Of a DNA stretch of 64,000 bases, positions 8,790 through 64,000 are shown in pieces. Each line of letters begins with the position of its first letter. Positions within the stretch are counted from its first letter, which is position 1. The position numbers and the translations under genes are program-made. The notes beneath the pieces were generated by a model. It searched no databases, had not been told where the DNA came from, and was given only the letters and a program-made list of their open reading frames with translations. This stretch comes from Mesostigma viride. Taxonomy: Eukaryota > Streptophyta > Mesostigmatophyceae > Mesostigmatales > Mesostigmataceae. The DNA lies in contig RPFO01000819.1 of NCBI GenBank assembly GCA_009746045.1, positions 560,382-624,381 of the forward strand, in the 5' to 3' direction.

Positions 8790-9892
8790 TGTTGAGTGAG
8801 CCCTGATTTTTTAGATTAGCTTAGAGTTAGCTTAGTTAGGTTTCGTGGCTTCGCTCACGCCCACCCATCAGCATGCTAGCGAATACGTGCTACATGATGT
8901 CCCAACGGAGTCATATTCTAATTTAATGCAATTTACTGCCAGCACATGCTGTCCACAAGATCTCGTGATAATCCGGACCAATAAGTTGTGTGGGTGCAAT
9001 AAGACCCATGTGAGCATATGATACTAAGGAGCGTGGGCAAGTGTTCTGATAATAGCCAGGACGTACATGCATGCACTGATTTACGAAAGTGACCCAATTA
9101 ATTAATGAATTAATTAAACTCGTGCTCCCGTTGGGCCGGGAGTCACGGAGCATTAACCCCAAGGTGTGGATGGAGGGATGGGTGCACGCAATCCTATACC
9201 GGTGTAAGCTATCTATACAGGCAGGCCGACGCAAACAGTCGTATGGTATATCTATGGTGCTGGCGACCCTAGCGATCTAATTGTCTAGCATGCCTCCCAT
9301 GTTTGCAAACACGCTCCTTCCCCAATGCAGCTAGGGGGGGGTAAGTCCTTGATGACCTGGGCCCTCTTGGCCTTGTCCTGACTTACTCAATATCTCTGGC
9401 TTGGCCAGCATACCATTGACAATGAATGGAGCCTTAAGATGTTGCAGCCAGTTGGAAATCACCAACTGCCACAACGCCAGAAACTTGTGAACATTGCCAA
9501 AGTGCATTCAGCTAGCTCAATGCATGGCATGGGGTAGAAGTTGGCAAGGTTGGCGGTGAGGGTCCACGTCTTGGCCCTGCACGTAAGAACAGGGAGGCAG
9601 TGATACAAGGTAGGGTGCTAGCTCCCTCGTTGTACGTGTACATGGATGAATTATAAAAAAAATAATAATAACTTATGTGTCTCGCCCCTGCCATGAACGT
9701 GTGATTAATTAATTAGTAACATAACTCCGCTGGGAGAATATGTACCCCATAGCCCTGAGAAGGGGCATATGGCTTTTAATACACTCTGGGCTACTTCCTG
9801 CAGGTGGGGGAATGTAAACTGCCACCTACTCGGGCACACACCACATGCACGAGTAGCATATGTCCTTCCACTTAAGATGAATATGGGGTAAT
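8790..9892. other. Non-coding interval with three LINE 3' ends
   Basis: No coding frame is supported. LINE 3' ends with the shared hairpin lie at 8893-8915 (+, decayed), 9121-9147 (-, perfect 9-bp stem with a longer loop, followed on that strand by an AATTAATTA tail) and 9720-9742 (-). It separates the convergent transposase and kinase genes inside the CACTA-like element, so these are secondary insertions into it. Confidence 0.6.
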
Positions 9893-10077
9893 CATACTGT
9901 ACAGATGTAAGCAATCTTTCTACACACCTCATGGAGAAGTGGGTCTGTTGACTTGCGGACAAAGCACTTGGGCGACCTCCTGAACAGATCGTCCACCATG
10001 ACGAAGAAAGCATAAACATCGTGCCCTGGCTGAGCTTGTAGCGTTCCCCTCAAGGCCTTTGCACTTGGGATGCAACA
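9893..10077 (-). pseudogene. Duplicated 3' fragment of the kinase gene
   Basis: This stretch closely repeats the segment 10178-10353 within the kinase ORF. Shared runs include GCGGACAAAGCACTTGGG, GTCCACCATGAC and CAAGGCCTTTGCACTTGG. It begins 3' of the kinase stop and has point changes, so it is a partial tandem duplication with no open frame of its own. Confidence 0.8.
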
Positions 10078-10080
10078 CGG

Positions 10081-11523
10081 TTACTGCTTGGGGTAAGCAT
10101 CGGGCACGAATATGCGGGCTTTGTGGAACATGTCCGCCAGCCCGGCCATGTCAGGTAACACAATATCGTGCTTGTATTGTTGTCGAAAAGCAATCTTCCT
10201 ACACAGCTCCCACAGAACTGGGTCCGTTGCCTTGCGGACAAAGCACTTGGGCGACCTCCTGAACAGGTCGTCCACCATGACCAAGAAAGCATAAACATCG
10301 TGCTCTGGCCGAGCTTGTATCGTTCCCCTCAAGGCCTTTGCACTTGGATGCAAGACCGTGGCCGGGTGCCACCGGGACTGCCCCGGCACACGCATGGGCG
10401 CCATCTCGTTCACTCTGGTTGCCTGGCCCAGGTCTCCAATGTAGATGGTTGGCTCCGCCGTGCCCTCCTCAACCTTGTACAAAAAGTTGTCACACTTAAG
10501 ATCGTTATGAATGATTCCAACCGAGTGCAAATTGGATAAAACTTTGGCGCACTTCGCCAAGATGGGAGGCGTGCGCACATCAAAGGGACGGTTGTATTCG
10601 GAGGCATCACGGGCAGCCTTCAAGTCACCCGTCACCATCTCCATGACTATGCCACCTACAGTCTCAACTGGGGCCCACAATCCTGCGACACGTGGACAGG
10701 TGCCCTCTCGACGCCCCGCAATGGTCATGAGAGCAGCTTCCCTGGCCACTCCAGCACTCAGATCCACAATTACCTGCTGTATGTGCACGAGGTTTGTGGC
10801 GCGCGGGATCTTTGCCACTTTCACGACCAGAGGATGGTCAAAGCCAGGTAAAGTGGACTTGACAAGGTGCACAGACCCAAAGAGGCCGGCGCCTAAGCGC
10901 TTCCCCAAACTCACGTGGGGGTACCGCATCAGGCCCCGCTCAACAATGTCCCGGGTTTCTGCACAGGTGGTCATCTCTGCCAGCCTGGCCTGCATTGCTT
11001 CCCACGCATTCGGTGTACCGCAGCAGGCGTCCGGACGCTTGGAAGCATCTTGTGCACGTGCAACGCCGGTATGTCCTTTGCTGTGCAATGCTTCCTTGGT
11101 GTGCACCGAATGGCATGCCCCGGTGGGTGCCAGCGGGGGATCTGGGATGGTAGCCAAACAAAGTGGCGACACGGCAACGTCGCGAGTCATCACAGCGGGG
11201 TTGACGGGGCGAACTGCAGCACAGGCGGGGATAGCCGTGGGGCGGGCGACACTCGCAGCCCCGGGCACTGGCCGGAAAGCGTGCAACCCATCACGCCCAG
11301 GCATTATGGTGCTTCTCGCACCGACGTTGTCTTGACGAATAGGGGGAGCGGCGTTGCCACCCTCCATCGCCTGACTACGTATGCATTGAGTCGTCCCCCT
11401 CTTCTTCCCCCTCTTTTTCAACCGCCACCGGCGGACTGCTTCGGCCACTTGCCGCTTTCTCTTTTCCTGTTTTTGCGCGATGTCAACGGGATTTTCCATT
11501 GTGGCTGTAACGGGACTTTCCAT
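10081..11523 (-). CDS. Serine/threonine-type protein kinase carried by the CACTA-like element
   Basis: Intronless 480-codon ORF starting at ATG 11523. Residues 20-43 are strongly basic (likely nuclear localisation), residues 44-200 are low-complexity linker, and residues 205-470 are a kinase domain. Visible kinase landmarks: glycine loop GAGLFG (211-216), ATP lysine in VVKVAK (235 or 238), a candidate C-helix Glu 262, catalytic loop HNDLKCDN (339-346, Asp 341, Lys 343, Asn 346), metal-binding DLG in place of DFG (364-366), and an EHDVYAF motif with the structural Asp 409. All catalytic residues are present, so it should be active. The catalytic loop has HND in place of HRD, so activation-loop phosphorylation may not be required (inference). 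It is encoded antisense to the transposase and its 3' end is duplicated just downstream. Whether it serves the transposon or is captured cargo is unknown. Confidence 0.85.
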   Translation of the reverse strand: MESPVTATMENPVDIAQKQEKRKRQVAEAVRRWRLKKRGKKRGTTQCIRSQAMEGGNAAPPIRQDNVGARSTIMPGRDGLHAFRPVPGAASVARPTAIPACAAVRPVNPAVMTRDVAVSPLCLATIPDPPLAPTGACHSVHTKEALHSKGHTGVARAQDASKRPDACCGTPNAWEAMQARLAEMTTCAETRDIVERGLMRYPHVSLGKRLGAGLFGSVHLVKSTLPGFDHPLVVKVAKIPRATNLVHIQQVIVDLSAGVAREAALMTIAGRREGTCPRVAGLWAPVETVGGIVMEMVTGDLKAARDASEYNRPFDVRTPPILAKCAKVLSNLHSVGIIHNDLKCDNFLYKVEEGTAEPTIYIGDLGQATRVNEMAPMRVPGQSRWHPATVLHPSAKALRGTIQARPEHDVYAFLVMVDDLFRRSPKCFVRKATDPVLWELCRKIAFRQQYKHDIVLPDMAGLADMFHKARIFVPDAYPKQ

Positions 11524-11685
11524 GGTGGTCGCTCGTAATTAATAATTTACATTAAGCGCAGGCTTTCGACCTTCGTTGTTCCATTTCAACACCCAACAAC
11601 ATCATCTTGTGTAACTTAGGGTCTTGGGGGCAGTGCAGCTTGTCTGGACGATCGATCATGCAGACAAGCACACGTGACCCTGACC

Positions 11686-11835
11686 GAAATGATTACCAAA
11701 AAAGGACAAATGATTACCGATTTTTACCGATGATTACACATGATTACACATGATTACACGTACATGATTACCAAAAAATGACAAATGATTACCGATTTTT
11801 ACCGATGATTACACATGATTACATATGATTACACC
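11686..11835. repeat. Tandem duplication of an ATGATTAC-rich unit
   Basis: Two near-identical units of about 75 bp contain ACAAATGATTACCGATTTTT-ACCGATG followed by several ATGATTACAC repeats. It lies immediately inside the right subterminal array. The interval from 11524 to 11685 upstream of the kinase holds no other gene and may carry its promoter. Confidence 0.8.
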
Positions 11836-12523
11836 CCCGTATTACATAGGAAGGAGTGACTATGTACTCCACCCTATGTACTCCAAGAGTACATAGGGTG
11901 GCACACTATGTACTCCAAGAGTACATAGTCCGGAGTACATATGATCCGGGATTTCCGAATAGGGGACTGCCGACGCGGTGAGACACGCCCGTATTACATA
12001 GGAAGGAGTGACTATGTACTCCGGACTATGTACTCCAAGAGTACATAGTCCGGAGTGACTATGTACTCCAAGAGTACATAGTCCGGAGTACATATGATCC
12101 GGGATTTCCGAATAGGGGACTGCCGACGCGGTGAGACACGCCCGTATTACATAGGAAGGAGTGACTATGTACTCCGGACTATGTACTCCAAGAGTACATA
12201 GTCCGGAGTGACTATGTACTCCAAGAGTACATAGTCCGGAGTACATATGATCCGGGATTTCCGAATAGGGGACTGCCGACGCGGTGAGACACGCCCGTAT
12301 TACATAGGAAGGAGTGACTATGTACTCCGGACTATGTACTCCAAGAGTACATAGTCCGGAGTGACTATGTACTCCAAGAGTACATAGTCCGGAGTACATA
12401 TGATCCGGGATTTCCGAATAGGGGACTGCCGACGCGGTGAGACACGCCCTTATTACATAGGAAGGAGTGACTATGTAATCCACACTATGTACTCCAAGAG
12501 TACATAGTGTGGAGTACATAGTG
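11836..12523. repeat. Right subterminal array of the CACTA-like element, 153-bp units
   Basis: Four full units, starting near 11836, 11989, 12144 and 12295, repeat with a period of about 153 bp and are almost identical, with a partial fifth unit. Each contains two to three palindromic modules built on GTACTCCAAGAGTAC flanked by CTATG/CATAG, plus a unique part with GATCCGGGATTTCCG and GACGCGGTGAGACACG. Because 153 is divisible by three, a 255-codon minus-strand frame stays open across the array; this is a by-product. The array is the inverse of 3322-3660. Confidence 0.9.
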
Positions 12524-12690
12524 CCTCCAATGCAAGCAGGTATTCTCTGTTGGTTTTTAATAATAATAGTTGGATAAATCTTTATAGGGAGGGGGGGAAG
12601 CTGCCGGCGTAGCTTAACGTTGATCACCGGCTGAGCGGCTGTGTTATTTCGCAGGACACACGGGTGTTTTCAACAGGAAAGACGCGAGGT

Positions 12691-13017: not shown

Positions 13018-13029
13018 TAAACACTTAAT

Positions 13030-14390
<1,361 letters not shown>

Positions 14391-14860
14391 AATTGAATTG
14401 AATTGTAACATAACTCCGTTGGGAGTATATGTAGCACATAGCCCTTGAGAGGGGGCATATGGCCTATCATACATCCTAAGCTACTTCCTGCAAGGGTGGG
14501 GATGTAAACAACACTTGCTCGAGGTGCACCAAGGCACCTGCACCCTCATGATGTATCGCGCTATGCCCACTTAAGGGGGAGCGTGGCATGCGGGGGAAGA
14601 TCATCATGGCTATACAAGAGCTATGGCATGGCGTCTCAGCAGAGAGTTACTCCCTGCATGGGCACTGCATAATTAAATAAAGCTAGGCATCATCTGGAGG
14701 GTGGCTCATCATAGGCACACATGTACATGACTAAAAAGGCTAGGCCTAGGCTGGTATAGTGCCTGTAGTAGGCGGGCATGTACACTCTCTGTCATGTTCC
14801 TCATTAATTAATTCATTACATGACTCCATTGTGAGTACATGTGGCACATATCCCTGAAGC
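14391..14860 (-). repeat. LINE 3'-UTR fragments, minus strand
   Basis: On the minus strand this reads as the same 3' UTR that follows ORF1 at 22940: the run ATGTACATGTGTGCCTATGA, then AGATGATGCCTAGCTTTATT, then the hairpin at 14409-14431 and a (CAATT)n tail at 14391-14408. A second, shorter end with its own hairpin (14819-14841) and an ATTA-type tail lies just beyond it. Both are 5'-truncated, as expected of LINE copies. Confidence 0.75.
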
Positions 14861-14954
14861 TGTGCATATGGCCTTTAATACATTCTGGGCTACTTCCTTG
14901 CGAGGGTAGGATGTAATGTCAGTTAACTACACCTGCTCCAGGTGCATGAAGTGC

Positions 14955-15552
<598 letters not shown>

Positions 15553-15689
15553 ATGTACTCCCACAGTTATGTTCCTAATTTATTAATTAATTAATGTGTC
15601 TTGCATATTGCATTAACTGAGACAATGGTGACATGTGTGCATTATCAGGATGATGCATTATCAGAATTTAGCCCAGCGCTGCGAATGCA

Positions 15690-15830
15690 GAGAGTCACTC
15701 TCTGATGAGAAGCCATGCCCTAGCCTTTGTATAGCCATGATGTTTTTCCACCCCATGCCAGGCCCCCTTGAGCTCTGAGAGATCATGCTGGTGCAGGTGC
15801 CCTTGGTGCACCTACAGCTGTAGAGCAGGC
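15690..15830 (+). repeat. LINE 3'-UTR family fragment
   Basis: Repeats the segment seen at 13860-13990 and 23090-23230: GAGAGTCACTCTCTG, GCCATGCCCTAGCC, TGTATAGCCATGATG and GGTGCAGGTGCCCTTGGTGC. It lacks the terminal hairpin and ends just downstream of the next gene's stop codon. Confidence 0.7.
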
Positions 15831-21062: not shown

Positions 21063-21365
21063 CGATACACAACAGAGGCTGTCCTGACTGCGAAAGACTT
21101 AATTACCAATGTCTTCGTCGTCTTCTACGTCTTCCACAGTGTGCATGCGTAGCTAGCCAGCTATGTCGCGGTTTACGATCCAGTTAACGATAACGGCCCC
21201 GTAACCAGCCCAGTACCTAATATTGGAGCAGCTATGGCGCCGTACCCACTACCTGACCCGTCCCGTATACCCCAACGTAACCTGAACCGAAGCCGTTCAC
21301 GCCCCCGTAAACATAACCGGCCCAGTTATTGGGCCGTACCGAATCTCGGGGCCAATATTCCGAAT

Positions 21366-23359
21366 CCACGAGGTAGCCATGGCTGACGGCGGAGCTCATA
21401 ACTTTCACGTTTGAGCACCGAATTTAGTCGTGAATATCACAATCGCTTCGTCTTTCTAAGACGCACATGCTGATATAATTTTCCGACGCTATTACACAAT
21501 ATACGATGAGCAAACGCCCATCGACGCAACGCAGCCTGACGGCTGCGCTCGGCAATGAAAATACGTCTGCAGCTCCGGCTGCAGCTTCGCCATCAGGTCC
21601 GGCAGGCGGCAGTGACACTAGTCACGCACTGGTAGTCGCCCAGCACCCTCCCGGGCTTCCTGCCTCGCCCTCAGCCTCGCCTGATCCCAAGCGCAGTCGC
21701 TCAGACGAACCTGGCTGGTCTGAGCGAGAAATTGACGTTGATCGGCTTTTTGCCACCTTCGACATCAACAGCTAGGCTTGCCTTTTTCGAAATTCATTGC
21801 TCCAAGTTACTGGAGCTCGTGTTTTACGGGTCCCACGCCTCACTGCTGGCCCTGTGCAAGCAGTTCCATTCCAGAACCCACCTTTTCCGCAACGGAGCTG
21901 ACGGCCGGTTTTCCGAACGCCCAGCTGACGCCCCTACCTCGGCCAATATGGCCGGCTGGCCTCGCCCCCGCCTTCAGCTCGCAGCTCTCTTTACCATCAC
22001 TCAGCGCTCGGCCTTCGACCTTTTGCAACCCTGCCCCGTTACCGAATCCACCTTCCTCCGCCACCTCCACGACGCCTTCTCACAGCACGTGTCGCCCATT
22101 GCTGCCAACGTGCGCACGCTGGCTGCTGAGCTCCCCACCATCCCCACCGCCACCGCCGCCCTCCTCGCCTCCACCCCCCCCCCCTCCGCCTCCACCGACT
22201 CCATCACCGCCCAGCTCCGCGACATCGACCAGCGTCTTAAGGATAACGCCATCGCTATCGAGGTTCTGCAGAACACCGCAGGCCTCACCGCCCAGGCGGT
22301 GAAGGACATTGCAGCCAAGCCAGCCCCGGCTGGCCTGGTCGGCGATGCTCCTCCCATCACCACCTGGGCGGACATGCTTAAGCAACACACCACCTCCACC
22401 ACCTCCGCCGTCGCAGCCCAGCTCCAACGGCAGACGCTTGACCTCCGCGAGGAGGCCGAGCTCGCCAAGCGCAGCCTTAACGTCATTGTCAAGAATCTCA
22501 AGATGGAGGAAGGTGAGAATTCCGAGAAGCTTGCGCGTGCTTTTGAGAGAGAAATCCTTGATCGCATGGGCCTTACTGGTGAGATCGAGCTGGCCGCCCA
22601 CCGCCTTCCCCGCGCGCGGGGTAAGGCAGGGCCGCCCCCGCTCCTTCTCACCTTTAAGACCCCGGCGGACAAGATTTCTTTTCTCAGACGCCGCAAGCGG
22701 CTCGCGAAGACTCTCTTCACCCTTGATGACGACCTGACCCTGGCGCAGCAACAACGGCGACGGGAGCTATGGCCGATCTACCTCCAGCTCCGGCAGACCA
22801 AGGCGGGCCAGCCGGTGTACTGGAAGGGGGCGGCCATCTACGTCGGCCACAAGCCCTGGCAGGCGACACCCCCCCCCCGCGGCCCCAGCGACTCCAGACG
22901 CCCCAGCTTAGGGGAATACAGCAGTAGTAGTGTAGAATAGATAGACCGTGGCCATGTACATGTACGCCTCCTAGAGGCACTATCCCAGCTAAGCCACGCG
23001 CTTTATTTAATCATGTACATGTGTGCCTATGATGAGCCACACTCCAGATGATGCCTAGCTTTATTTAGTTATGTTGAGCCCATGCAGGGAGTCACTCTCT
23101 GCTGAGAGCCACGCTTTAGCCTTTGCATAGCTATGCTGATCTTCCCCCCCATGACAGGCTCCCCCTTCGCTGGGCATAGCTTGAAGATCATGGGGATGCA
23201 CGTGCCCTGGTGCACCTAGAGCAAGGGTCCTTTACATCCCCACCCTTGCAGGAAGTAGCTTAGGATGTATGATAGGCCATATGCCCCCTCTCAAGGGCTA
23301 TGTGCTACATATACTCCCAACGGAGTTATGTTACAATTCAATTCAATTCAATTCAATTC
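21366..23359 (+). mobile_element. Complete ORF1-only LINE (non-autonomous)
   Basis: Bounded by a perfect 12-bp target duplication AATATTCCGAAT at 21354-21365 and 23360-23371, in a GTAACC-rich flank that continues on both sides. It holds a 5' UTR, one ORF1, a 370-bp 3' UTR, the shared 3' hairpin at 23308-23330 and a (CAATT)n tail. No ORF2 sequence is present between ORF1 and the 3' UTR, so it must use another element's reverse transcriptase, by analogy with mammalian HAL1 elements. A second, decayed copy of the same ORF1 plus 3' UTR lies at 48170-49125. Confidence 0.85.
21506..22940 (+). CDS. LINE ORF1 protein, L1-ORF1p-like, one frameshift
   Basis: Starts at ATG 21506 with a Pro/Ala/Ser-rich N-terminus. 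The frame breaks at about 21770 (TAG) and continues in the +1-related frame to 22940, so one base change separates it from an intact gene of about 475 codons. The middle contains heptad-like Leu/Ala helices (about 22160-22330). The C-terminal third (22470-22850) reads like the RRM plus C-terminal domain of L1 ORF1p: NVIVKNLKMEEGE, AHRLPRARGK, a Phe-rich strand, the basic FLRRRKRL, and a final strand near VYWKGAAIYVG. The expected role is RNA binding and chaperoning in the retrotransposition particle. Confidence 0.75.
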
Positions 23360-23371
23360 AATATTCCGAAT

Positions 23372-24432: not shown

Positions 24433-24788
24433 TAAGTAAGTAAGTAAGTACTTGCGTGTCATGCGCAAAGGCATGCCACGGAGTACTATGCTAATCTCAT
24501 TAGAAAAATAATTACACAAAAGTTTAAACAAATATCGTCTGCATCATCCCCCAACCGTTAAGCACTAGATGGGGATGTAATCCTCATCCGAGCTGTCCTC
24601 TACTGTAATGGCAGACGAGGCGGTAGTGTAGCGGCTATCCTCAGGACCAATAACCTCCACCTGCGGACTTCTACCCTGGCTAGCAACAGGCCGCGGGGCC
24701 CGTGGGGAGAAAACAGGAGCATACCCCTCGGGAAGGTGCTTATCGCAGATGGCAGCCCATTTCTCCTTGTCAATCATGCGGGCGCGGA

Positions 24789-26309: not shown

Positions 26310-26379
26310 ACCTTCAAGGTTTTTCCTTTTTCTTTTGTTGCTTTCTTCTTTTGATTCCTATTCCTTTACGTAATTAAAG

Positions 26380-39417: not shown

Positions 39418-39425
39418 GACCTGAT

Positions 39426-41145
39426 CAGTGTAAAATCATACGCCGTATTATACGGTATAATACTGTATAATACGTTATGCGCTGGTTGTTAGCGTATAAT
39501 TTTTCATACGTAATACGTTTTAGCGCATAATGACGTATAATACCGTATAATACCGTATAATGCCGTGTTTTCCGCGGTTTTTTTACGTTTTGCGCGGCTA
39601 GGATGCCAGAACGACAGGGCAACGATTTGAAGCCACAGATTTCGTATCTCTACTAAGTACTGACCCGTCTGAACTTTCACAATTCGACGCGATCTTATTT
39701 TGAAATTGTGGTGCACAGTGCGCGCACCCGTGCGGAGGTGGCCATGGCGACGTGCGTTCCGTTAAAATATGGCTAATCCGGCGGGCGACATGCGAAAAAA
39801 TTAAGCCGATGGTTAAAAGTGATGTTCTATTATGATGTTTCATAGTGCTCAAGATCTGCACTATTTGCAAATTCGCTGCCTTTGTTGGTACAGATTTGCA
39901 CGGGGGTCTCATCCAACAATTTGGCCGCGATGAATAATCTAGCATGTGTGCCTGCGACGGTAGAACTCGATATTCGTGGGTTATTTTGATGCAGCAAGAG
40001 CCGTTTAGTAACGGACACCATGAAAATAACCTAAGCATCTTCGATCTGCGGCCATTTCCTGTCATTTCTAAAATGATTTCGTTCAGGCCTGCGCGATCCG
40101 CGGTTAATCCATCCATGGCTGGCTGGCTTTTCTTGCGCGCCTGGGTAGGAAATAATGCCGGCCGTGGTACGTTGATTTGCCGCATGTCACCGCCCAGTCT
40201 GTTTGCGCTCTTAATGAACCTGGCATGAAACTTTTTGCGCCGTTTCTGGGTTTTTCTTGCTATTTTGTTCTCCACTTGTTGCAGTTGTGCTATCAGATTT
40301 TCCGCAGCTTTCAATGGTTTTCCTTACGCTGCGTATGCCATGCTTCCTAAAGCTACCCAGAATTGATCGGGCAGTTATCTGGCTTTGCTACGCTTCCTGT
40401 ATGGAGGTTTTCACACGGTAGACATTCTATATTGCGTAGTCAAGGACCCTAGCTGCCTGGGAGCGGCATCACCGTTGCAACCTGAGCTGGCGAGCTCATA
40501 GACGCCTGTCATGCTCTTCAGCCTGCTGGAAAACAAGGTTGTTGTATGGAAGGTGAGAATATGTGAGTTACTTATCACATCCCCACCTGTTTAGCCTCCG
40601 TGGTCCCCCAACGGGGACACGAGATTAATTAATATTAATTAATTAATGCACACCACGAGTCACACACCTGTAGTCACATGCAGCTCAGTATATTCACATA
40701 GCATCGCACCATGCAAACATACTACATGCATTAATTGTATACTACTGTAGTATTTGCGTGCATGCACAGCCACATATATATATTAAAATATATAATTACT
40801 TGCATCAAAGTGAAGGCACCCAAGTAAACATAACCAATATAAAGCCACATATATACACACATACACACAATTATGCATGCGCACGTTTACATTCTCAGTA
40901 TTACATGCAATACATCGATCGTGTCCACAATGTCCACCGTATAGAGTATAGCAACCTTGGATTATGTCCAAAACAGTGTTAAAAACATGTGGATTGATGG
41001 TGGGTGTCTTAAAATGTGTAAAATCAGAGTATTCTGAGTGTGTCCGTACGATAACGTATAATATCGTATTATACCGTATTATACCGTATTATACATTATA
41101 CTCCACCGTGACCGTATAACGCGTATAACGTACGATTTTACACTG
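39426..41145. mobile_element. hAT-type DNA transposon, 1720 bp, probably non-autonomous
   Basis: A perfect 8-bp target duplication GACCTGAT (39418-39425 and 41146-41153) and terminal inverted repeats CAGTGTAAAATC-A/G-TACG (16 of 17 matching) fit the hAT superfamily. Both subterminal regions are crowded with GTATTATACGGTATAATAC-type motifs, as in many hAT elements. A minus-strand frame at 39598-40314 has a coiled-coil-like start but no ATG and no recognisable dimerisation domain. A LINE 3' end (hairpin 40599-40621, then an ATTA-rich tail) sits inside it, so it has itself been a target. 40640-41040 is AT-rich and empty. Confidence 0.85.
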
Positions 41146-42456
41146 GACCTGATTGCATCGCGGCGTATCTCATCCGCTGACCACTTCTCCCTGCGCCCAC
41201 GGACGGGGCGTAAGCAGGTCCAGTCAGGGCGGGGCCGGGGGCGGCGGCGCGCAGGGGCCTGAAGACGTAGGCGCAAGGTTGCGGTGACCATGCGATGATC
41301 CGATGCGACACTGGGGGTGGTCAGCGTACGGGCATCGATGACGGAAGAGCGCCAGCACTTGCGCACAAGTATGTAGTCCAAGCATACACATCGCCGCCGA
41401 GGGAGCATTGAGCCAGCCGCCCTGCGCATGGGGCCCACAAAGGTCACTAGTGCATCAGGCGGTTTAGCAAAAAGCGTATTGGCAGCAGTCAAGTCCCCCT
41501 CAGTGAGCAGTTGCTCAAGTAGGGGGGTGTTGGCATTGCTATCGGTTAGGCGCGGCGCATACATGCAGCCCCCGCGGCCCACGGGCAGGGTCGCGTTGGC
41601 ATCCACCAAGATGGCGACGATGTATTGACGTGGGATCTGTTTCTCTATGTCGAGCAACTGGTTGAAGAACGCTGCGCGGTCCTCGGCCGGGTGCCCAGCA
41701 TGTGGGGCATATCCGACAATTACCGAGAGCATGATGGGGGTCCGTCCTTCAAGGGAGCGGAAAGTGCACTGAAGGATCCGATTCGAGCAAAGTTTGTGGT
41801 CCACGAGCTGGGCGGCAGCGGTGGGGGAGCACAGCAGGCCCACTCCTCCCTGACCCGGTGCATGCGCCGGGCCGCACAGCAGTTGCCATTGTAGTGCGAG
41901 GGTGACACGCTGAACGGGGCCCTCAAAGGAGCGTCGGTGCTCTTGGACCCCAAGCACATCAATGCCATATAGGCGGCAGTAGTGGACAAGCTCGTTGGCC
42001 CGCGGGGGGGCATCTTCCCCGGGCAGGGTGCGGACATTGTAGGTAGCGATGCGCAGCGAGTGGTGCCGGCGTTGGCCCAGCAGGGGGCGCCGGGGACTCG
42101 CGGTGTCGGCAGGGGGTTGGGGGGAGGTTGGCGGGGACTTAATTGTGTGCGGCGTGAGATAACATAGTACTTTTCAACGCGCATAGGGCACCCTCCAGGC
42201 GGGCGGCGCGACTTGCTCGCCTGGTCTTGGGGTCAAAGAATGCAGCATACCGTTGGGAGTGCCGGGTTGCGAAAGCCAGCAGGCGCTCCTTGTTGCGAAG
42301 TTGGCGATGAAGGTCGCGGCTTTGACTCCGTTGCGTCGTCCGTGAGATTGGACTATCCAAGACACGCTCGGCCATCGGACGACGGGTGTGGGGGGTGGGT
42401 TCTAGCTAACCCCCCGGTAGCTCGGCTGCTCGCGGTGTGAGGGGGGCGGGGAGGGC

Positions 42457-47469: not shown

Positions 47470-47870
47470 GCTGGTTCGGTTGTCTCCTTGATAGCCAAAG
47501 CATCATCCACTCTCACAACGTGTTGAGCACGTGCCTCATGGGAAGGGAGATCTCCGTGATTTGGAAGAAGATGATGGACAAGGCCAAGTGGGCCCAGGTC
47601 ATAGAGGACAACGAGCCCCCCCCAGTGGGGAAGCGCCCGCGTGTGCAATCCCGTGGGAGGCACGCCAGACAGCTCCCCTAGGGCGGCGTGCGGCTGTCTT
47701 GATAGATGTTGTAGTTAGCATGCTGTTAGATAGATGTAGTATGTGGCTGATGTAGATAGATTAGACCGGTAGGACTGTTTGCACCCATCCATCCATCCAT
47801 CGGACTGTTTGCTCCGGACGTGACTCCCCAACAGGAGCACGAGTCTAATTAATTAATTAATTAATGGGAA
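47470..47870 (+). pseudogene. LINE 3' end: ORF2 C-terminus plus 3' UTR
   Basis: A frame ending at 47681 (LMGREISVIWKKMMDKAKWA, then a Pro/Arg tail) parallels the C-terminus of the large LINE (RARMIDKEKWAA). The 3' UTR follows, with TAGATAGATGTAG repeats, a CCAT microsatellite, the shared hairpin at 47819-47841 and an AATTAATTA tail. It is 5'-truncated near 47470. The same 3' UTR occurs inverted at 49105-49270. Confidence 0.6.
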
Positions 47871-47984: not shown

Positions 47985-48068
47985 ACGCGGCTTCCTCCAC
48001 TCCACCCACCCATCAAGGAATATGTGCTACATGATCTCCCAACGGAGGCATGTTATAATTTAATTTAA
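47985..48068 (+). repeat. LINE 3'-end fragment, second family
   Basis: Short 3' end: TGTGCTACATG, then the hairpin at 48030-48052 (stems CATG/CATG and TCTCC/GGAGG, bulged A, loop CAAC), then an AATTTAATTT tail. It matches 8860-8920 and, inverted, 63900-64000. Confidence 0.7.
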
Positions 48069-48169
48069 GGGGACGGGACACATCGGAATTTTTTCGTGCC
48101 AAAAAATTCGCGCCGGTACCGTCGGTACCCCTGGACCGTGAAATTGTGGTGCACAATGCGCACAATGCG

Positions 48170-49125
48170 CCCAGGCGGTGAAGGACATTGCCGCCAAGCC
48201 AGCCCCTGCTGGCCTGGCCGGCGATGCTCCCGTCCCATCACGACCTGGGCGGACACCTGGGCGCACACCACCTCCGCCGTTGCAGCACAGCTCCAGCAGC
48301 AGCAGCTCGACCTTCGCGAGGACTCAGGCCGAGCTCGCCATGCAAGCGCAGCCTTAACGTCATACTCAAGAACTTCGACATGGAGGAAGGTGAGAATTCC
48401 GTGAAGCTTGCACGTGCGTTTGAGAGCAAAATCCTTGCACGCATGGGCCTTCTTGGTGAGATTAAGCTGACCGCCCACCGCCTCCCCCGCGCGCGGGGTA
48501 AGGCAGGGGCGCCTCCGCTTCTTCTCATCTTTGAGAGCCCAGCGGCCGGACAAGATTTCGTTTCTCAGACGCCGCAAGCGCTCGGCTCGAGAAGACTCAC
48601 TTCACCGTGGACGACGACTTGACCCTGGCGCAGCAACAACGGCGACGGGAGCTATGGCCGACCTACCTCCAGCTCCGGCAGACCAAGGCGGGCCAGCCGG
48701 TGTACTAGAAGGGGGCGGCCATCTACGTCGGCCACAAGCCCTGGCACGCGACCCCCTCGACCACCGCGGCCCCAGCGACTCCAGAAGCCCCAGCCTAGGG
48801 GAATACAGCAGCAGTAGCGTAGACTAGTTAGACAGTGGCCTTGTACATGCCCGCCCACTACAGGCACTATACCAGCTGAGGCCTAGCCTTTTTAGTCATG
48901 TACATGTGTGCCTATGATGAGCCACCCTCCAGATGATGCCTAGCTTTATTTAATTATGCAATGCCCACGCAGGGAGTCACTCCCTGCTGAGAAGCCATGC
49001 CCTAGCTCTTGTATAGCTATGCTGATCTTCCCCACCTATGACGGGCTCCCCTTAGCTGGGTGTTGCCCGAGACTCTGGGTGGTGCAGGTGCCCTAGTGCA
49101 CCTAATTAATTAATTAATTAATTAG
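48170..49125 (+). pseudogene. Decayed LINE ORF1 with 3' UTR
   Basis: Parallels 22290-23230: VKDIAAKPAPAGL, RLNVI-type core, AHRLPRARGKAG, DDLTLAQQQRRREL and the terminal SLGEYSSSSVD, spread over three frames by indels, and with a TAG in the tail. The 3' UTR follows (ACATGTGTGCCTATGATGAG), ending in AATTA repeats that meet another LINE tail head-on at 49125. The 5' half of ORF1 is missing. Confidence 0.8.
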
Positions 49126-49270
49126 ACTCGTGCTCCCGTTGGGGAGTCACGGAGCAAATTAACCCCGATGGATGGATGGATGGATGGGTGCAAACAGTCC
49201 TACCGGTCTAGTCTATCTATATCGGCTACATGCTACATCTATCTAACAACTTGCTAACTACAACAGCTAT
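49105..49270 (-). repeat. LINE 3' UTR fragment, minus strand
   Basis: On the minus strand: CAAACAGTCC region, CCAT microsatellite, the perfect hairpin at 49129-49151 (stems CGTG/CACG and CTCCC/GGGAG, bulged A, loop CAAC), then an ATTA tail. It is the inverse of the 3' end at 47700-47870. Confidence 0.75.
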
Positions 49271-54228: not shown

Positions 54229-55127
54229 TACACGATACTGGCCGCAGCGGTAGTCTGCACTTTAAGAGAACGTGTGGGGCCACTTTCCAAGAAAATAAGA
54301 GGCCCTCAGCACTGTACTGCAGCAGTTTTGCGATTCCAGCATCCGTTCTCCTTTCCCAGTGTGGTACTGGATACTACTGGATAGTTGTTAGGGTGCCACT
54401 GGTTAGATAGTGTTGTACTTGTCTTTTCTTGGACAGCGTACAACTTAGTAGTCATATTTTTTCGGGGGCAATGGATGGATGTATTGCCGGCCCAGTTTCA
54501 AGCCGCTGCCATGGTATGATGGCCGACTGGCTTTGCCCATTAGATGGGGCTATTTTTTACGGCGGAAATGGATGGTTGCATTGCCAGCCCGCGGGTTGCA
54601 GCTGTAACCTCCATGGTCATATACACAGACTGTGTAATAGCACAGCTCTGTCAAACTTTGTAGCATAGTCGTAGCTATGATGTAACATAGCGCCCAGTGT
54701 GGTGGAATCCGTCAACTTGTAGCATAGTCGTAGCTATGATGTAACATAGCACCCAGTCACTGTGGTGAAAACCGTCAACCGTACACTTGCACGCTGATAT
54801 GCTCGGTCAAATAAGTTAGTCTGTACTTGCGTGTCATGCGCGTAGGCATGCCACGGAGTACTATGCTACTCTCATTCGAAAAATAATAACACAATTAAGA
54901 GTACGTTGAACAAACAGACAAATGTCGTCTGCATGATTGGTGAGGATACTGGGCTCCTTTGATTACTTACTTAATTAGTGTATTAATAACTTTGTTGTTG
55001 TTGTTTTAAAGAACGCGATATATTTTTGTAAAACGCCTATAGCACATCAAGCATTTAGCCATGCTCTGCCCATTCAGAGAGTCACTCTCTGTTGAGAAGC
55101 CATGCCCTAGCGCTTGTATAGCTATCA
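54229..55127. other. Intergenic with a LINE 3'-UTR scrap
   Basis: 54660-54770 contains a short tandem repeat (GTAGCATAGTCGTAGCTATG twice). 54810-54940 matches the 3' UTR of the big LINE (minus orientation), including its hairpin at 54830-54855, but without ORF2 sequence. 55060-55125 is a piece of the ORF1-LINE 3' UTR. Confidence 0.6.
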
Positions 55128-55789: not shown

Positions 55790-55995
55790 TCGCCCGATGC
55801 ATGACCCATCATGGTGGTGCAGGTGCATGCACCTTGTTGTGCACCCAGAGCAGGTGCTAGTTTACATCCTACACCTGCAGGTTGTGAGCCCAGACTATAT
55901 CTAAAACCCATAGATGCCCCTTTCTCAGGGCTATGTGTTACATATGCTCCCCACGGTCGAGCTATGTTCTTAATTAATTAATTAATTAATTAATT
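55790..55995 (+). repeat. LINE 3'-UTR fragment with variant hairpin
   Basis: GCAGGTGCATGCACC, TTTACATCCTACACCTGCAGG, then a hairpin at 55941-55966 (lower stem CATA/TATG, bulged T, upper stem GCTC/GAGC, enlarged loop) and an ATTA tail. Confidence 0.65.
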
Positions 55996-56713: not shown

Positions 56714-56724
56714 CAGTCCACCCT

Positions 56725-58178
56725 AAGTAAGTAAGTAAGTAAGTAAGTACTTGCGTGTCATGCGCAAAAGCATGCCACGGAGTACTAATAATGCTAATCT
56801 CATTAGAAAAATAATTACACAAAAGTTTAAACAAATATCGTCTGTGGCGGTCTGCATCATCCCCCAACCGTTAAGCACTAGATGGGGATGTAATCCTCAT
56901 CCGAGCTGTCCTCTACTGTAATGGCAGACGAGGCGGTAGTGTAGCGGCTATCCTCAGGACCAATAACCTCCACCTGCGGACTTCTACCCTGGCTAGCAAC
57001 GGGCCGCGGGGCCCGTGGGGAGAAAACAGGAGCATACCCCTCGGGAAGGTGCTTATCGCAGATGGCAGCCCATTATTTCTCCTTGTCAATCATGCGGGCG
57101 CGGAGTACGGATAGTCCATGCAGAAGCCCTGCATCTTCAAGCAGTTGTGTCTCATAGGTCCGGGTCGCGCCGCGCCGGTGCCCGGCGCGCGCAAGTTTGC
57201 CAGTGGGTTGCGATGGGACAAGGGGACCCTGCCATAGGAGGAGGTGTCTATCTGGTTGGCCCGTCTTAAGCCCCCCGGCAGGGCCCACATCGGTATTCAC
57301 CTGGTCTGTGCGGGCAAGATGGCCGGCAAAGAGGAGGCGGCGGTGTCGGATGGTATGGGTGACAAGAGGGAGCTCGCAGTAGAGCTCGGCCCGGGTGCGG
57401 CGTTCTTGGTAGCGGACGCCGAGGATATGACGGAGCATTCGAGTGACGGTGCCGTCAAGCTGCTGGCTCAGCGCCTGGTCCAGGGTCCACGCCTCGCAGC
57501 CATAAAGGAGGATGCTGAGGACAAGGGCCTTGAACAGAATGCGCTTGCGTCGCTCACTCAGGTAGCGACAGGTCCAGAACCTGTCGAGGCGGCGGAGGGC
57601 CGCCCAGGCGTGGCCAATGCGGGTGTTGATGTCGTCGGCCGTGAAGGGAAGCCAGCTGCCAAGGAGCTTGAAGCGAGTCGCCGGGGGGACGGGGCTGCCG
57701 TCCAGCAAGAGGAGGGTGGGTGGGGCTATCCCAGCAGGGAAGCCGATGGCCATGACCTCCGTTTTCTTGCTGATCATAAGCCCCACCGCCCGCGCTTCCA
57801 GTGATAAGCTGTCTAGCCACAGTTGGGCTGACTCTGGGGTTTCCACGAGTGTCGTGTCATCAGCGTAGATCAGATCGCTCAGGCAGTAGGGTGGGTCAAC
57901 CCCGCCGTAGCTGGCGTACTCCGTGATCTCGATCCCCGGCGGGCACCCCTCCACCCGGGCGAAGCGGGCTTGTGCACGCCGCATAATATAGTCCACCATA
58001 ATGATGAATAGATATGGGGAGAGCACACAGCCCTGCCACACCCCGGTGTGCAGGGGGAACGCCGGAGTGACGCCATCAGCGGTACGGACCTGGGCTTGGG
58101 ACCCTTCATAGAACTGGCGGATGATCTCAACGATGTACGATGGGACACGGAACAGGTGAAGGACCACCCACAGGGCGT
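56725..58178 (-). mobile_element. 5'-truncated second copy of the large LINE
   Basis: Flanked by a perfect 11-bp target duplication CAGTCCACCCT (56714-56724 and 58179-58189), a signature of target-primed reverse transcription. It contains the RT from just before the TGVWQG motif to the ORF2 end, the 3' UTR, the hairpin at 56754-56779 and a TTAC-repeat tail. It supplies the unbroken version of the sites hit by the chromovirus and TIR element in the copy at 24433-43790. Confidence 0.93.
57073..58167 (-). pseudogene. C-terminal half of LINE ORF2 (RT)
   Basis: Continuous 364-codon frame with GVWQGCVLSPYLF, the catalytic LIYADDTTLVE, KTEVMAIGF, the thumb region ILFKALVLSILLYGCEAWTLD, and HTIRHRRLLFAGHLART. 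The N-terminal RT and the endonuclease are missing through 5' truncation. The frame ends at a TAA produced by a 3-base insertion (AAA-TAA-TGG) relative to the other copy, where the protein continues about 65 residues; the rest lies in frame down to 56880. Confidence 0.9.
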
Positions 58179-58189
58179 CAGTCCACCCT

Positions 58190-59470
58190 GATTTGCCGTG
58201 ATGGTTTTCCGCTGGTCTTCATTTCTTGACTACATCAAGCAAGGCTTTAATTCGACACGGTCCTCTGGGAGGCTCTTTGGGCCATCCTAGCTCTGGATCG
58301 CGTGCCACCAGCATTTATTGCTGCCATTCGCCGGCTGTATGAGGGATCACAGGCAGCTATAGTGCGGAAGGACTGCGGAAGGCACTGGACCACACCATTC
58401 CCCCTTGGCCCCTTCACTAGCTATATGCACGGGGTGTGGCAAGACCTTGTGTGGCCTGTCCGGCCCCATAGCTGTTCATTATTGTCGTTGATCACGTCAT
58501 GCGCTAGGCACGTTCGCGCTTTACCGCTCTTAACTAAGGAGTGGTTCGAGAGCCTGGCTTGGACATCCTTGGTTAATTAAGGATCGCGAATACGGCGGCA
58601 GTGGCCGGCTGGTTATACCGCCTGTCCGACCTGACTTATGCGGGTGATACCGGCCCTCATCGAGCGCCCCGGCCGAGCATGCACATTCAGACACATGTGG
58701 CCGGCTGGACTGTTTGGGCTTGGAGGCGCGGGCGGTGGGGTTGGAGATTAGTGTCAAAACCGAGGCGATGGTGATTGGGGCTACCCGTTGCCCGCCACGG
58801 CGGCTGCTGCAATATGCGCCGCTTCAAGCTGCTCACTGGGGTCTGGGGAGCATGCTCCCCGACGCAGCTGACGATATGGAACCCCGCATCGGCCTGGCCT
58901 GGGCCCGGCTCCGCTCGCTCATATATACATCTATTGCACACTGTCCTCCTGACGGTGGTGCTCGCCATGGTTCGGTCGGTTTTCCCCCACGCGAACATCC
59001 GGTCCGAGGATGCGGATGGCGCTGCCTTCTATTCCCCCAATCACCGGCCTGACATCGTGGTGCTGGACTTTGAGGGGGGTGGCCGGCATCTCAGTGCTTA
59101 TTGACGTTTCGGTGGCGCGGCCCTTGGCTCTTAGCCACGTGGCTGGGGCCTCCCTCACGGCAGGTTACACGGCGGAGCGGGCGGAGCGGGCCAAGCTCCT
59201 GGCCTACGGCGACGTCGGGCACCATCGTGTGGTGCCCTTTGTCCTGGAGGAGTTTGGGGCCATGGGGCCCCTGACCTCCGCCTTCTTCAAGGAGTGTTGC
59301 CGGCTCCAGGAGGACCGGCTGGACCTGGAGGGCCAGCGGGCCCCATGGTCGGCGCGGACCTGGACGTCATATTGGCGTCAGCGCTTGTCGGTGGCGCTGA
59401 CTCGGGCCATGGCTGACATCATGCTCCGCCGTACGCGGGCTGATTTTGCGGTGCAGCAGGGCTATTAGGT
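58190..59470 (+). pseudogene. Different LINE: RT remnants and RLE-like C-terminal domain (left arm)
   Basis: RT remnants in several frames: VPPAFIAAIRRLYEGSQA near 58300, GVWQD near 58430, and GLEARAVGLEISVKTEAMV near 58720. Then 59010-59468 is open and reads RPDIVVLDF, IDVSVARPLA, AERAERAKLLAYG, PFVLEEFGAMGPL. That pattern (PD, then Asp/Glu-x-V strand, then Lys helix) matches the restriction-like-endonuclease-type C-terminal region of many protist and algal LINEs; the assignment is inferred. 58984-59630 is repeated in inverse orientation downstream. Confidence 0.65.
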
Positions 59471-60370
59471 TCCTCCTGTTAGGCGTTTCCACCATTGGTC
59501 TTATCGTAGTATAGAGCTTTGACATGGCTCTGTATATAGGTTTATAGCTGGGCGTTTGCTTTGGTTTGAGTGATTTCACTCTGCTGTAAGTAATTATATT
59601 TTTATAATATATATTATAAAAATATAATTACTTACAGCAGAGTGAAATCACTCAGACCAAAGCAAACGCCCAGCTATAAACCTAATGTAATTATATTTTT
59701 ATAATATATATTATAAAAATATAATTACTTACAGCAGAGTGAAATCACTCAAACCAAAGCAAACGCCCAGCTATAAACCTATATACAGAGCCATGTCAAA
59801 GCTCTATACTACGATAAGACCAATGGAAACGCCTAACAGGAGGAACCTAATTGCCCTGCTGCACCGCAAAATCAGCCCGCGTACATACGGCGTATAGCAT
59901 GATGTCAGCCATGGCCCGAGTCAGCGCCACCGACAAGCGCTGACGCCAATATGACGTCCAGGTCCGCGCCGACCATGGGGCCCGCTGGCCCTCCAGGTCC
60001 AGCCGGTCCTCCCGGAGCCGGCAACACTCCTTGAAGAAGGCGGAGGTCAGGGGCCCCATGGCCCCAAACTCCTCCAGGACAAAGGGCACCACACGATGGT
60101 GCCCGACGTCGCCGTAGGCCAGGAGCTTGGCCCGCTCCGCCCGCTCCGCCGTGTAACCTGCCGTGAGGGAGGCCCCAGCCACGTGGCTAAGAGCCAAGGG
60201 CCGCGCCACCGAAACGTCAATAAGCAGATGCCGGCCACCCCCCTCAAAGTCCAGCACCACGATGTCAGGCCGGTGGTTGGGGCCGGGAATAGAAGGCAGC
60301 GCCATCCGCATCCTCGGACCGGATGTTCGCGTGGGGGAAAACCGACTGAACCATGGCGAGCACTGGGTCA
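58960..60370. repeat. Large imperfect inverted repeat with AT palindromes at its centre
   Basis: Arms 58960-59630 and about 59690-60370 reversed are about 95 percent alike by eye. Between them, the same 42-bp A/T palindrome (built on TTTTTATAATATA) occurs at about 59590 and 59687, each followed by CTTACAGCAGAGTGAAATCACTC. The structure is two LINE copies with their 3' tails meeting. Confidence 0.85.
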
Positions 60371-60990
60371 CCGTCAGGAGGACAGTGTGCAAATACAAAT
60401 ACCAATTCTGATTCTGTTGGCCCCCCAATGATGCAGGCAAGGTAGTGAGTCCCCGTGGGATCCAGCGGCTGCCCACAGCTACCACAAGGCCGCCCGGCCG
60501 GAATTCAAGAGGCTGCGGGGCAAATATAGCTGGTGCCGGAGCGCCACCGAGTAGTGGCTGGGAGCTAAGGCGAATGGGGGGGCCATGGGAAGAGCACGAA
60601 GGTACGCCGAGCCCAAACTCCGCAAGGAAAGCGAGAACAGCCACGCACGTCCCTGGGCGTTGAGGTCCGCGAAAAGAGCCATCCAATCAGCCGTGTGCAG
60701 AATACCCGCGTAGGTTTTCTGGTGTTTATCGATGACGCGAGCAGGGAATGCGGCGGGAGATTGAACGGAGGCGACCGAGGGAGTGCCGCGAGGGAGGTGG
60801 CGCTGTACCGCCTGAGCGGCACGGACGGGAGAACAGGCCTGCTGGATCTCAGCATAGGCCTCCTGGATGGCGGTGACGAAGGGCAAAGGGCTGCTGGGGT
60901 ACAGGAGGTCAGGCGCTGCCGTTGCCAAAAGGGGCAGGAGCCGGCAGCTTTCCGCCCACGACTGAGCGACGGAGCCCAAAAATGTATATA
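59847..60990 (-). pseudogene. Different LINE: middle and RLE-like C-terminus (right arm)
   Basis: On the minus strand, 60979-60479 encodes a helical region with RAWLFSLSLRSLGSAYLRAL and HYSVALRHQLYLP, typical of the segment before the RLE-like domain (LxxxP...FxxALRxRLxLP pattern). Then 60270-59850 repeats the RPDIVVLDF, IDVSVARPLA and PFVLEEFGAMGP segment. A frameshift near 60420 and loss of the Cys/His segment between the two parts make it dead. At 60985-61050 a third copy of the same 3' end (GTGAAATCACTCA, CAAAGCAAACGCCCAGC) follows. Confidence 0.65.
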
Positions 60991-61051
60991 TATTAAAAAT
61001 ATAATTACTTACAGCAGCAGAGTGAAATCACTCAAAACCAAAGCAAACGCC

Positions 61052-61178
61052 CAGCCATTAATTAATTAATTAATAGACACGTGACTGCGTCACGTGAGCA
61101 TAAGTCCTCAGTGGGACTCGGGGAACATGGGATGGAATGGATGGTATAAGCTATCTAGGTCCTAGTTACAGGGGTGTG
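61052..61178 (-). repeat. LINE-type 3' end with CACGTGAC palindrome
   Basis: AATTAATTA tail at 61058-61072, then GTCACGTG/CACGTGAC inverted around TGCG/CGCA. It resembles the other 3' ends in layout but the stem is fully symmetrical. Confidence 0.5.
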
Positions 61179-61217
61179 GCCCAGCTATAAATATATTAAT
61201 ATTTATAGCTGGGCCCT
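61179..61217. repeat. Palindrome at the 5' side of the Penelope-like element
   Basis: CCCAGCTATAAATAT and its reverse complement around a short TTA-type centre. It separates the preceding LINE tail from the Penelope-like ORF. Confidence 0.75.
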
Positions 61218-61273
61218 GCCCCTGCCAACAACAACGGTATTTCAAGTACCTTGATCCCACCTCACAGCACGTC

Positions 61274-62931: not shown

Positions 62932-63309
62932 GCCGCCCCCGCCCACCTCCGGTGGCTTGCGCCACCTTTACCCCAGTCAACCCGTCGCCCCTCGGGTTGG
63001 GGACAACGCCTCCACCATCCGACGGCCCCAATCCCTCGCGTCGCGTCTATGCGGTTCTTCGGATACATCTATGCGGTTTTCGGATACATCCGTATGCGGT
63101 TTTCGGGTGTACCTGTCCGTCGGGTCGTTGGATTCACACATCTGACGGTCGTAAATCGGTGGGAGAGTAATCGATCGGGAGAGATGAGCATTCTTGGTCA
63201 AAGACTATGACCGAGACATTATGCTCCGTCAAGTCCGATGTTTTTTGCAACGTCACCCACATCTGTTCGGTGCTGCCCCTTGGCACAAGCTCTACAAACA
63301 GGTCGTGGA
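62932..63309. other. 3' flank of the Penelope-like element
   Basis: Pro-rich then short repeats of TGCGGTTTTCGGATACATC (three times, 63050-63110). No gene seen. Confidence 0.5.
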
Positions 63310-63895
63310 CCGGCTGGATCGCATAGTATCTCCGCACATCTGAACCCTGTGATGCCAGATCTCCTTTGCGGCCGTTCCGAGCTTGGCACTGGATTCGTTG
63401 TCCACATCGTCGCGTCGCTGCAGCAACACGATGTTTTCTGGCATCCGCGGGCTTTTGGTTCCCGCCGCACATTTGAAAGTGCTGTCCTCCGGCTTTTTGC
63501 CTTTGCACCGTGTGCAGTTCTTGGACGTTTGGAATCATGGCATGGCTAACGTGATGACTGACTAGCTACCTTTTCAGTGGTTTTCCATTTGCTGGTATTT
63601 CCTCGTAAATGGTGGGAGAGCGATCGCAGCAATGGTGCTCACCACTAGACACTCCCGGCCAGTTAGGCTCGAAACACACGCCCTGATCACTGAAGCATGC
63701 TCGGCTGTTTCCGGCCCCACCGTCTAGGTCATCTAGTCGCTCTACACGTACGCCAGCCATAATTTCAATGCACAAGGATACACATTTCCATCACCATTCA
63801 TCTTGATCATCCTGAACGACTCGAAAACGCGGACAAGATAACGGCAGGCTCGAGCTACCATGGTCCGGATTCTCCCGATTTCTGGCCTGCGCTGG
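63310..63895 (-). repeat. Dispersed repeat containing a conserved short ORF, copy 2
   Basis: Reverse of 55128-55735. The minus-strand ORF from about 63535 keeps the CTRCKGKKPEDSTFKC start and stays open about 80 codons; a neighbouring frame continues with VHDLFVELVPRGSTEQMWVT to about 63150, suggesting a longer original protein. Confidence 0.6.
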
Positions 63896-64000
63896 TTAAA
63901 AATTAAATTAAATTAAATTATAACATGCCGCCGTGGGGAGGTCATGTAGCACATATTCCATGATGGATGGGGTGGAGGAAGCCGCGTGATCGAACTATAC
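63896..64000 (-). repeat. LINE 3' end at the window edge
   Basis: Minus strand: GTGCTACATG, hairpin at 63924-63946 (stems CATG/CATG and CCTCC/GGCGG with one mismatch, bulged A, loop CCAC), then an AATTTAATTT tail. Same family as 47985-48068. Confidence 0.7.

Follow-up and report, generated by a model that had tools for sequence, protein, structure and literature searches.

The question raised by a 64,000-nucleotide stretch of the Mesostigma viride genome (contig RPFO01000819.1, positions 560,382 to 624,381; hereafter the window) is whether the long interspersed nuclear elements (LINEs) within it end in one common RNA hairpin, and whether that hairpin marks them for a reverse transcriptase (RT). 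The original prediction, made from the letters of the window, proposed that hairpins of one plan (a 4-bp lower stem, a single bulged base on the 5' side, a 5-bp upper stem and the loop CAAC, about 23 nucleotides [nt] in all) stand directly 5' of AT-rich tails, that their stems change pairwise, and that one shape serves every family. Here, we find that several M. viride LINE families, with thousands of copies, end in the same predicted hairpin with a pairwise-changing stem. We consider it probable, judging from the sequences, that the hairpin is the 3' signal recognized by the endonuclease-RT of the second open reading frame (ORF2) before target-primed reverse transcription, with elements copied in trans according to their stem dialect and with two outlying families, TTAC and F, carrying diverged forms of it.

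All 13 hairpins of classes A to D were found letter for letter where they had been placed (see the table below), and the decay noted for one of them, B3, is real. Their position directly 5' of AT-rich tails also holds, both in the window and in genome-wide patterns: the window has nine long AT or CTTA tails, and every one of them is preceded by a hairpin, of class A, B, C, F or T (there were 13 tail matches, a palindromic tail that reads both ways being counted as one). The tails are AATT, AATTC, AATTT or CTTA repeats and not the poly(A) that characterizes the L1 clade; a 3'-end stem-loop adjoining short terminal repeats is the arrangement of stringent-type LINEs. In a scan of the window for geometry only (4 bp, 1 nt, 5 bp and a 4-nt loop, with nine of nine pairs and G-U allowed), 44 places passed; the loop was CAAC in only six, all of them the perfect sites already described. 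No Rfam family matched.

Within the window, stems differ while pairing is kept. With the 13 sites aligned (12 of the rows distinct) and 500 shuffles for reference, standard pairs fill 93.5% of pair cells, compared to a shuffled mean of 80.7%, and the covariation score is 0.505, compared to 0.229 in shuffles; neither value was reached by any of the 500. Changes on both sides occur at five of the nine pairs, and sliding the partner by one to three columns lowers the paired cells to 23-58%. Predicted folds for classes A to D have energies of -11.0 to -16.1 kcal/mol, with z scores of -2.4 to -4.7 (A1, -11.1 kcal/mol and -3.1; C1, -16.1 kcal/mol and -4.7). The drawn stem is kept and lengthened in the folds of A and B. 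In those of C and D the upper stem stays, and so for the most part does the lower one, its outermost pair giving way to a CTC/GAG extension.

The same structure recurs throughout the genome (440 Mb, 2243 contigs), which we searched with each pattern and, as a control, its reverse. The pattern TGCT-N5-B-N5-CAAC-N13-WAW, which fixes only TGCT, a non-A bulge, CAAC and three AT-biased bases and leaves the stem open, has 7,889 matches (3911+3978) versus 464 reversed (235+229). A version with bulge A and with C excluded at the next base has 3,526 (1693+1833) versus 25 (14+11), and CAACGG with an AATT tail, which additionally fixes the two stem G's beside the loop, has 12,049 (4568+7481, some reverse-strand sites being listed twice) versus 24 (10+14). 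Among the first 100 listed matches to the TGCT pattern, 71 form nine of nine pairs and 11 form eight, i.e., 82 form at least eight. In the 89 listed matches with at least six pairs, pair 4 is A-T in 53, C-G in 10, G-C in 5 and G-T or T-G in 17, and pair 3 is T-A in 79, G-A in 4 and G-C in 2. Two further classes, absent from the window, appear among the genome matches: class E (CATC/GATG, also CATT/GATG) and the rare class A' (CAGA/TCTG).

To these we add 137 distinct cores that were not selected for pairing (100 TGCT-pattern strings, 36 distinct bulge-A strings and 123 locus sites with CAAC and an AT tail, duplicates removed). In this set 63.2% of cells pair, compared to 47.0% in shuffles (highest of 1000, 50.9%), and 244 cells are changed on both sides, compared to 129 (highest of 1000, 162). 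Across the consensuses of classes A to E, pairs 2, 4, 6, 7 and 8 vary and all remain paired, as does pair 3 when A' is included; pair 1 and the two loop-adjacent pairs are invariant. Together, the window alignment and the genome cores bear out the proposed covariation, in which stems change pairwise around a constant bulge position and a constant CAAC loop, and in classes A to E the structure is maintained by compensatory changes, as in stringent-type LINEs.

Chance palindromes were considered as a source of such sites and rejected: 11 other loop words with an AT tail gave zero to two sites each with at least eight pairs, compared to 62 of 118 for CAAC, in loci that are enriched for CAAC, most having been fetched by it. 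The hairpin core had 19 matches in bacterial and archaeal contigs, a chance control, none with all nine pairs, and viral contigs searched with the ORF1 protein, the RT proteins and the hairpin yielded nothing. A separate repeat, TGCTGCCACGCGTGGCAACARTACACCAC, unrelated to the hairpin, makes up six of the 100 listed TGCT-pattern matches on genome contig C1, all six among those with fewer than eight pairs.

As predicted, the hairpin occurs in both ORF1-only and ORF2-bearing elements. We surveyed ORF ends in fetched genome loci for a hairpin within 700 nt, several matches being fragments of one copy. Hairpin C follows 15 of 19 C-type ORF2 ends, mostly at 145-151 nt, and hairpin B follows 7 of 10 B-type ends; after 19 ORF1 ends, we found hairpin A in seven cases and E in five. 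One C-type locus, L079, holds a 1032-aa endonuclease-RT ORF (RVT_1, 1.1e-25; Exo_endo_phos, 5.1e-7), so that endonuclease and RT lie in a single ORF as in other LINEs; its ORF2 C-terminal end runs on in another frame, with hairpin C 146 nt later. The ORF2 C-terminus had no match in the protein database.

The 13-bp repeats of the A1 element enclose ORF1, the 3' untranslated region, the hairpin and the tail. In 20 A copies taken from the TGCT-pattern match list, with about 0.9 kb fetched upstream, ORF1 lies upstream on the same strand in 14 (one only 36% alike) and is missing from that interval in six, and ORF2 was found on the same strand in none. The half-LINE arrangement, ORF1 present and ORF2 absent, is thus seen in the A1 element and in the sampled A copies. 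A search with the A1 element's ORF1 matched 54 proteins, 53 of which are M. viride gene models; there was no Pfam match, a profile search found no PDB relative, and structure prediction (mean pLDDT of 47) gave no usable Foldseek match. An ORF1 of this type (P0003-like) is absent upstream of the endonuclease in one C element (L079) and one B element (L106/L083/L057), which makes the ORF1-only families unlike simple deletions of these two; the ORF adjoining the B element reads as acetyltransferase-like. Candidate target-site repeats flank A1 (13 bp), A2 (13 bp) and C2 (12 bp), and none were found for most other copies; the flanks of L079 contain an 11-bp repeat in a repetitive stretch, and random places often give 8-11 bp.

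What joins these elements is confined to their last nucleotides. We compared the last 47 nt and the 138 nt before them by gapped local alignment with 200 shuffles. A and B are 81% identical in the last 47 nt (score of 56, shuffles at most 18) and do not match upstream (score of 14, shuffle mean of 14.6); for E and B, the tail is 77% identical (score of 51) and the upstream score is 14. Likewise, C resembles D2 (70%, score of 41) and D1 (64%, score of 33) in the tail, with shuffles at most 22, while the upstream scores are 14 and 15 for a shuffle mean of about 15, and the likeness of D1 to D2 is itself confined to the tail (72%). A and E are alike along their whole length (upstream score of 156), and we therefore treat them as one family group. 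Between these sets, B and C tails are 57-62% identical, above shuffles except for one of 200 in one of four comparisons; one copy of B, that of L082, also resembles C to some degree upstream, scoring 27-32 where no shuffle exceeds 25. The tails of A and C, 53% identical, score close to the shuffles. A 3' tail in common with non-autonomous partners is accordingly found for A/E with B and for D with C, in the last 47 nt only. On the sequences compared, such tail-only sharing is the pattern of pairs of short interspersed nuclear elements (SINEs) and LINEs, which have only the 3' tail in common in the passages on such pairs in PMC3747384 and PMC4176376. We infer two main hairpin dialects, one of B with A/E and one of C with D.

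The claim that one shape serves all families did not survive: the hairpins of the TTAC and F families do not follow the plan, and those with loop CAAC themselves split into two flank dialects. For the three TTAC hairpins, the predicted coordinates and letters are right and the strand is minus, not plus; the proposed analogue of the CAAC hairpin does exist, with a G-A mismatch and a 6-nt loop instead of the bulge and CAAC. The TTAC RT is 52-53% identical to the C-family RT, and pairwise identities among the B, C, F and TTAC RTs range over 35-61%. In a provisional tree (FastTree, query-anchored, with partly short rows), these four and unassigned RTs form one clade (0.999) relative to 33 outside proteins. 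Within it, B and a B-like fragment have TTAC as their sister (0.976), and F, with a row of 140 aligned residues, stands beside the second RT of L080 (0.995). As the TTAC RT nests among those of hairpin LINEs, relatedness of the hairpins is likely, rather than chance likeness. The TTAC hairpin, with its lower stem CGTG/CACG, likely descends from the same signal in diverged form, and the F hairpin likely does so in a form that has diverged further, loop and bulge being gone in both. P0059, which has no significant likeness to P0003 (E of 0.12), may be the TTAC LINE's own distinct ORF1. An L1 label for the RT was considered and is not supported: the PDB matches to 8gh6 (which we take to be R2; 1.1e-12) and to L1 ORF2p (6.8e-12) are about equal, and named insect endonuclease-RTs match at 26-30% in a comparison without labelled clade references.

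In the mechanism we propose, ORF2 would read the loop, the bulge and the shape of the stem; constant loop and bulge with pairwise-varying stems fit reading in the style of ZfL2 and UnaL2. ORF1-only (A/E) elements would be copied in trans by the B-type ORF2 protein and D ends by the C-type protein, with ORF1-only and short elements relying on the ORF2 of their own dialect, and RT slippage would form the tail repeats.

Several observations weigh against this account. In the window alignment, neither the count of doubly changed pairs (reached by 86 of 500 shuffles) nor the number of further pair types (reached by 485 of 500) rises above shuffles. Independent paired changes are few, as same-class copies are not independent; the A-to-C change in the upper stem may represent CTCC/GGAG moved by one pair instead of three substitutions (the upper stem stays 5 bp under either reading); and the first upper pair of class B is often T-T, hence unpaired. 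A' accounts for only two of the 100 listed matches, beside four with a G-A mismatch at the same pair, and the listed matches all come from genome contig C1. Some ORF ends lack their hairpin. Four of the 19 C-type ends have no C (F follows two of them, a chance hairpin follows another, and the last has none), the two F-leading ends being only 45-48% like the C end and so belonging to another family; 3 of the 10 B-type ends have no B hairpin (one is the window's decayed B3, one is at a locus end), and 7 of the 19 ORF1 ends have no own-class hairpin within 700 nt, two of them at a locus end. Finally, F (8 bp, no bulge, GCA) and TTAC (mismatch, 6-nt loop) do not share the plan.

A bolder reading, possible but held only tentatively, is that these elements amount to a split LINE, in which the ORF1 protein and the endonuclease-RT reside on separately spreading transposons joined only by the shared 3' hairpin. 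The ORF1 elements would depend on ORF2 elements for copying in trans, the ORF2 elements may in return draw on the ORF1 protein, and the stem dialects would separate the sets of partners.

The hairpin could instead serve RNA 3'-end formation or protection rather than RT recognition, retained because these families lack poly(A). Histone mRNAs, with a stem-loop at their 3' end, offer an analogy, and both the short AT or CTTA repeat tails and a hairpin fixed near the 3' end would fit. We nevertheless regard this as unlikely, since hairpin identity follows families and flank dialects, as for an RT-RNA pair and not a single host factor, and since F and TTAC, of the same RT clade, keep a hairpin of different shape. 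Plain descent, with a chance hairpin inherited from one ancestor and paired differences that are a few unselected accidents, would account for the loop and upper-stem core CTCCCAACGGAG being identical in A, B and E and for the small number of independent changes. It is made highly improbable by the paired changes that separate the classes (five or six pairs out of nine), by the occurrence of pair 4 as three Watson-Crick types, and by A-B and C-D likeness confined to the last ~47 nt. Convergence, in which LINEs without common descent would each have their own hairpin and their own RT recognition of it, would explain why F and TTAC share neither loop nor bulge with A to E. Yet the B, C, F and TTAC RTs, 35-61% identical to one another, fall in a single clade apart from the outside proteins, and we give this reading next to no credence.

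Table. Hairpins, ORFs and LINE parts in the 64,000-nt window (positions of the window)
Feature	Position	Strand	Description	Evidence
A1 hairpin	23308..23330	+	CATA T ACTCC CAAC GGAGT TATG, then (AATTC)n tail	sequence, alignment, folding
A2 hairpin	14409..14431	-	5'-truncated copy; 13-bp direct repeats at 14371 and 14783	
A3 hairpin	9720..9742	-	loop CAGC	
A4 hairpin	14819..14841	-	decayed	
A5 hairpin	55941..55966	+	loop of 7 nt	
Further A-type end	15552..15571	+	decayed; missing from the original prediction	
B1 hairpin	48030..48052	+	CATG A TCTCC CAAC GGAGG CATG	
B2 hairpin	63924..63946	-	loop CCAC	
B3 hairpin	8893..8915	+	decayed	
C1 hairpin	49129..49151	-	CGTG A CTCCC CAAC GGGAG CACG	
C2 hairpin	47819..47841	+	one pair broken; element flanked by 12-bp direct repeat ATGGGAAGGGAG at 47538 and 47864	
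C3 hairpin	9121..9147	-	loop widened to GGCCCAAC	
D1 hairpin	13710..13732	-	CGTG G TCCCC CAAC GGGGA CACG	
D2 hairpin	40599..40621	+	stem as D1; upstream sequence unlike that of D1	
T hairpin	24455..24480	-	CGTG G CATGC CTTTGC GCATG A CACG, then (CTTA)n	
T hairpin	54830..54855	-	tail decayed	
T hairpin	56754..56779	-	followed by (CTTA)n	
F hairpin	61078..61096	-	CACGTGAC GCA GTCACGTG, continuous 8 bp, no bulge, then (TTAA)n; missing from the original prediction	
ORF1-only element with A1	21353..23371	+	between 13-bp direct repeats CAATATTCCGAAT (21353-21365, 23359-23371)	
ORF1 (P0003)	21636..22940	+	434 aa; long helices in low-confidence model	
ORF2 C-terminus, B type	8649..8786	+	upstream of B3	
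ORF2 C-terminus, C type	47550..47678	+	upstream of C2	
TTAC-tailed LINE ORF2, RT part	57073..58218	-	second copy at 37703-39488 (-)	
TTAC-family ORF2, endonuclease part	41079..42173	-	45% over 343 aa to C-family endonuclease	
P0059	42633-43868	-	411-aa alanine-rich ORF directly upstream of TTAC-family endonuclease	

Other features lie among these elements. At 49101-49152, the palindromic AATT tail of C1(-) adjoins an ORF1-type element, 48168-49104(+), just where the similarity of the latter to its relatives breaks off, and it looks as if the hairpin-C1 element had inserted into the ORF1-type element. A direct repeat of ~38 bp brackets 14237-15615(+), a segment in which the decayed A end at 15552 is accompanied by an extended (ACA)n run and by two A ends in inverted orientation. 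Near the F-type end are AT-rich inverted repeats with common flanks (59590-59781 and 61004-61233). A protein-kinase ORF at 10081-11538(-) adjoins an A-type LINE end, and its 3' part is duplicated (9909-10075 and 10188-10353, 91% over 167 bp). The window also contains a gypsy-type long terminal repeat retrotransposon polyprotein, open over a long stretch, with gag, protease, RT/RNase H, integrase and chromodomain (26374-32241, +), and a 153-bp tandem repeat (3363-3625) that recurs inverted 8 kb away (11831-12515).

Among known systems, HAL1 is a mammalian ORF1-only derivative of L1, a half-LINE that presumably moved in trans. Like HAL1, the M. viride A elements have ORF1 without ORF2; unlike it, their P0003-like ORF1 was found in neither of the two ORF2 elements examined, one C and one B. 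In the sections of PMC4176376 on recognition, ZfL2 ORF2 binds the 3' stem-loop, the stem through a conserved region and the loop through a variable one, so that the stem is read generally and the loop specifically, and UnaL2 requires a single bulge. As those sections describe UnaL2, ZfL2-1 and ZfL2-2 (stringent LINEs of the L2 clade, and SINEs), a stem-loop stands before short 3' repeats, with a tail common to autonomous and non-autonomous elements, and the single bulge of UnaL2 recurs in the M. viride hairpins. The M. viride loop, CAAC, and the host lineage are different, and recognition by ORF2 here is proposed from sequence.

A second precedent lies in monocots. According to the portions of PMC3747384 on these elements, by Ohshima, monocot L1 LINEs and maize and sorghum SINEs have a hairpin in the last ~50 nt with compensatory stem changes and conserved loop bases, and a 3' end far better conserved than the remainder, all of which resembles what we find. 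That case concerns the L1 clade, and most plant L1s are described there as poly(A)-ended, whereas the M. viride tails are AT-rich tetramers or pentamers or CTTA; and the monocot partners given there are SINEs only, while the M. viride partners include ORF1-bearing elements. The M. viride genome is reported to have a 66% repeat content with LINEs among the repeat classes, and the available text of that paper does not mention 3' structures of LINEs (PMC6947507). Monocot L1s were thus already known to have compensatory 3' hairpins, and L2-type LINEs to have bulged ones. As far as searches of open papers show, what is new is the presence of such a hairpin in M. viride, a streptophyte alga, the dialects of its stem, and the division of ORF1 and ORF2 over separate elements with the hairpin in common.

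According to a proposal in the part of PMC3747384 on origins, recognition of a specific 3' RNA structure was a property of LINEs in the green-plant ancestor, and a plant lineage later lost it. Mesostigma is described as a member of an early-diverging streptophyte lineage, and thousands of its LINE ends carry such a 3' structure, with natural stem swaps that could be used for testing. The bearing on the green-plant-ancestor model is indirect, because the L1-clade label for these RTs is unsupported. That ORF1 and ORF2 lie on different elements with a common 3' hairpin would also provide a test case for trans-mobilization, in which one could ask which dialect each ORF2 copies.

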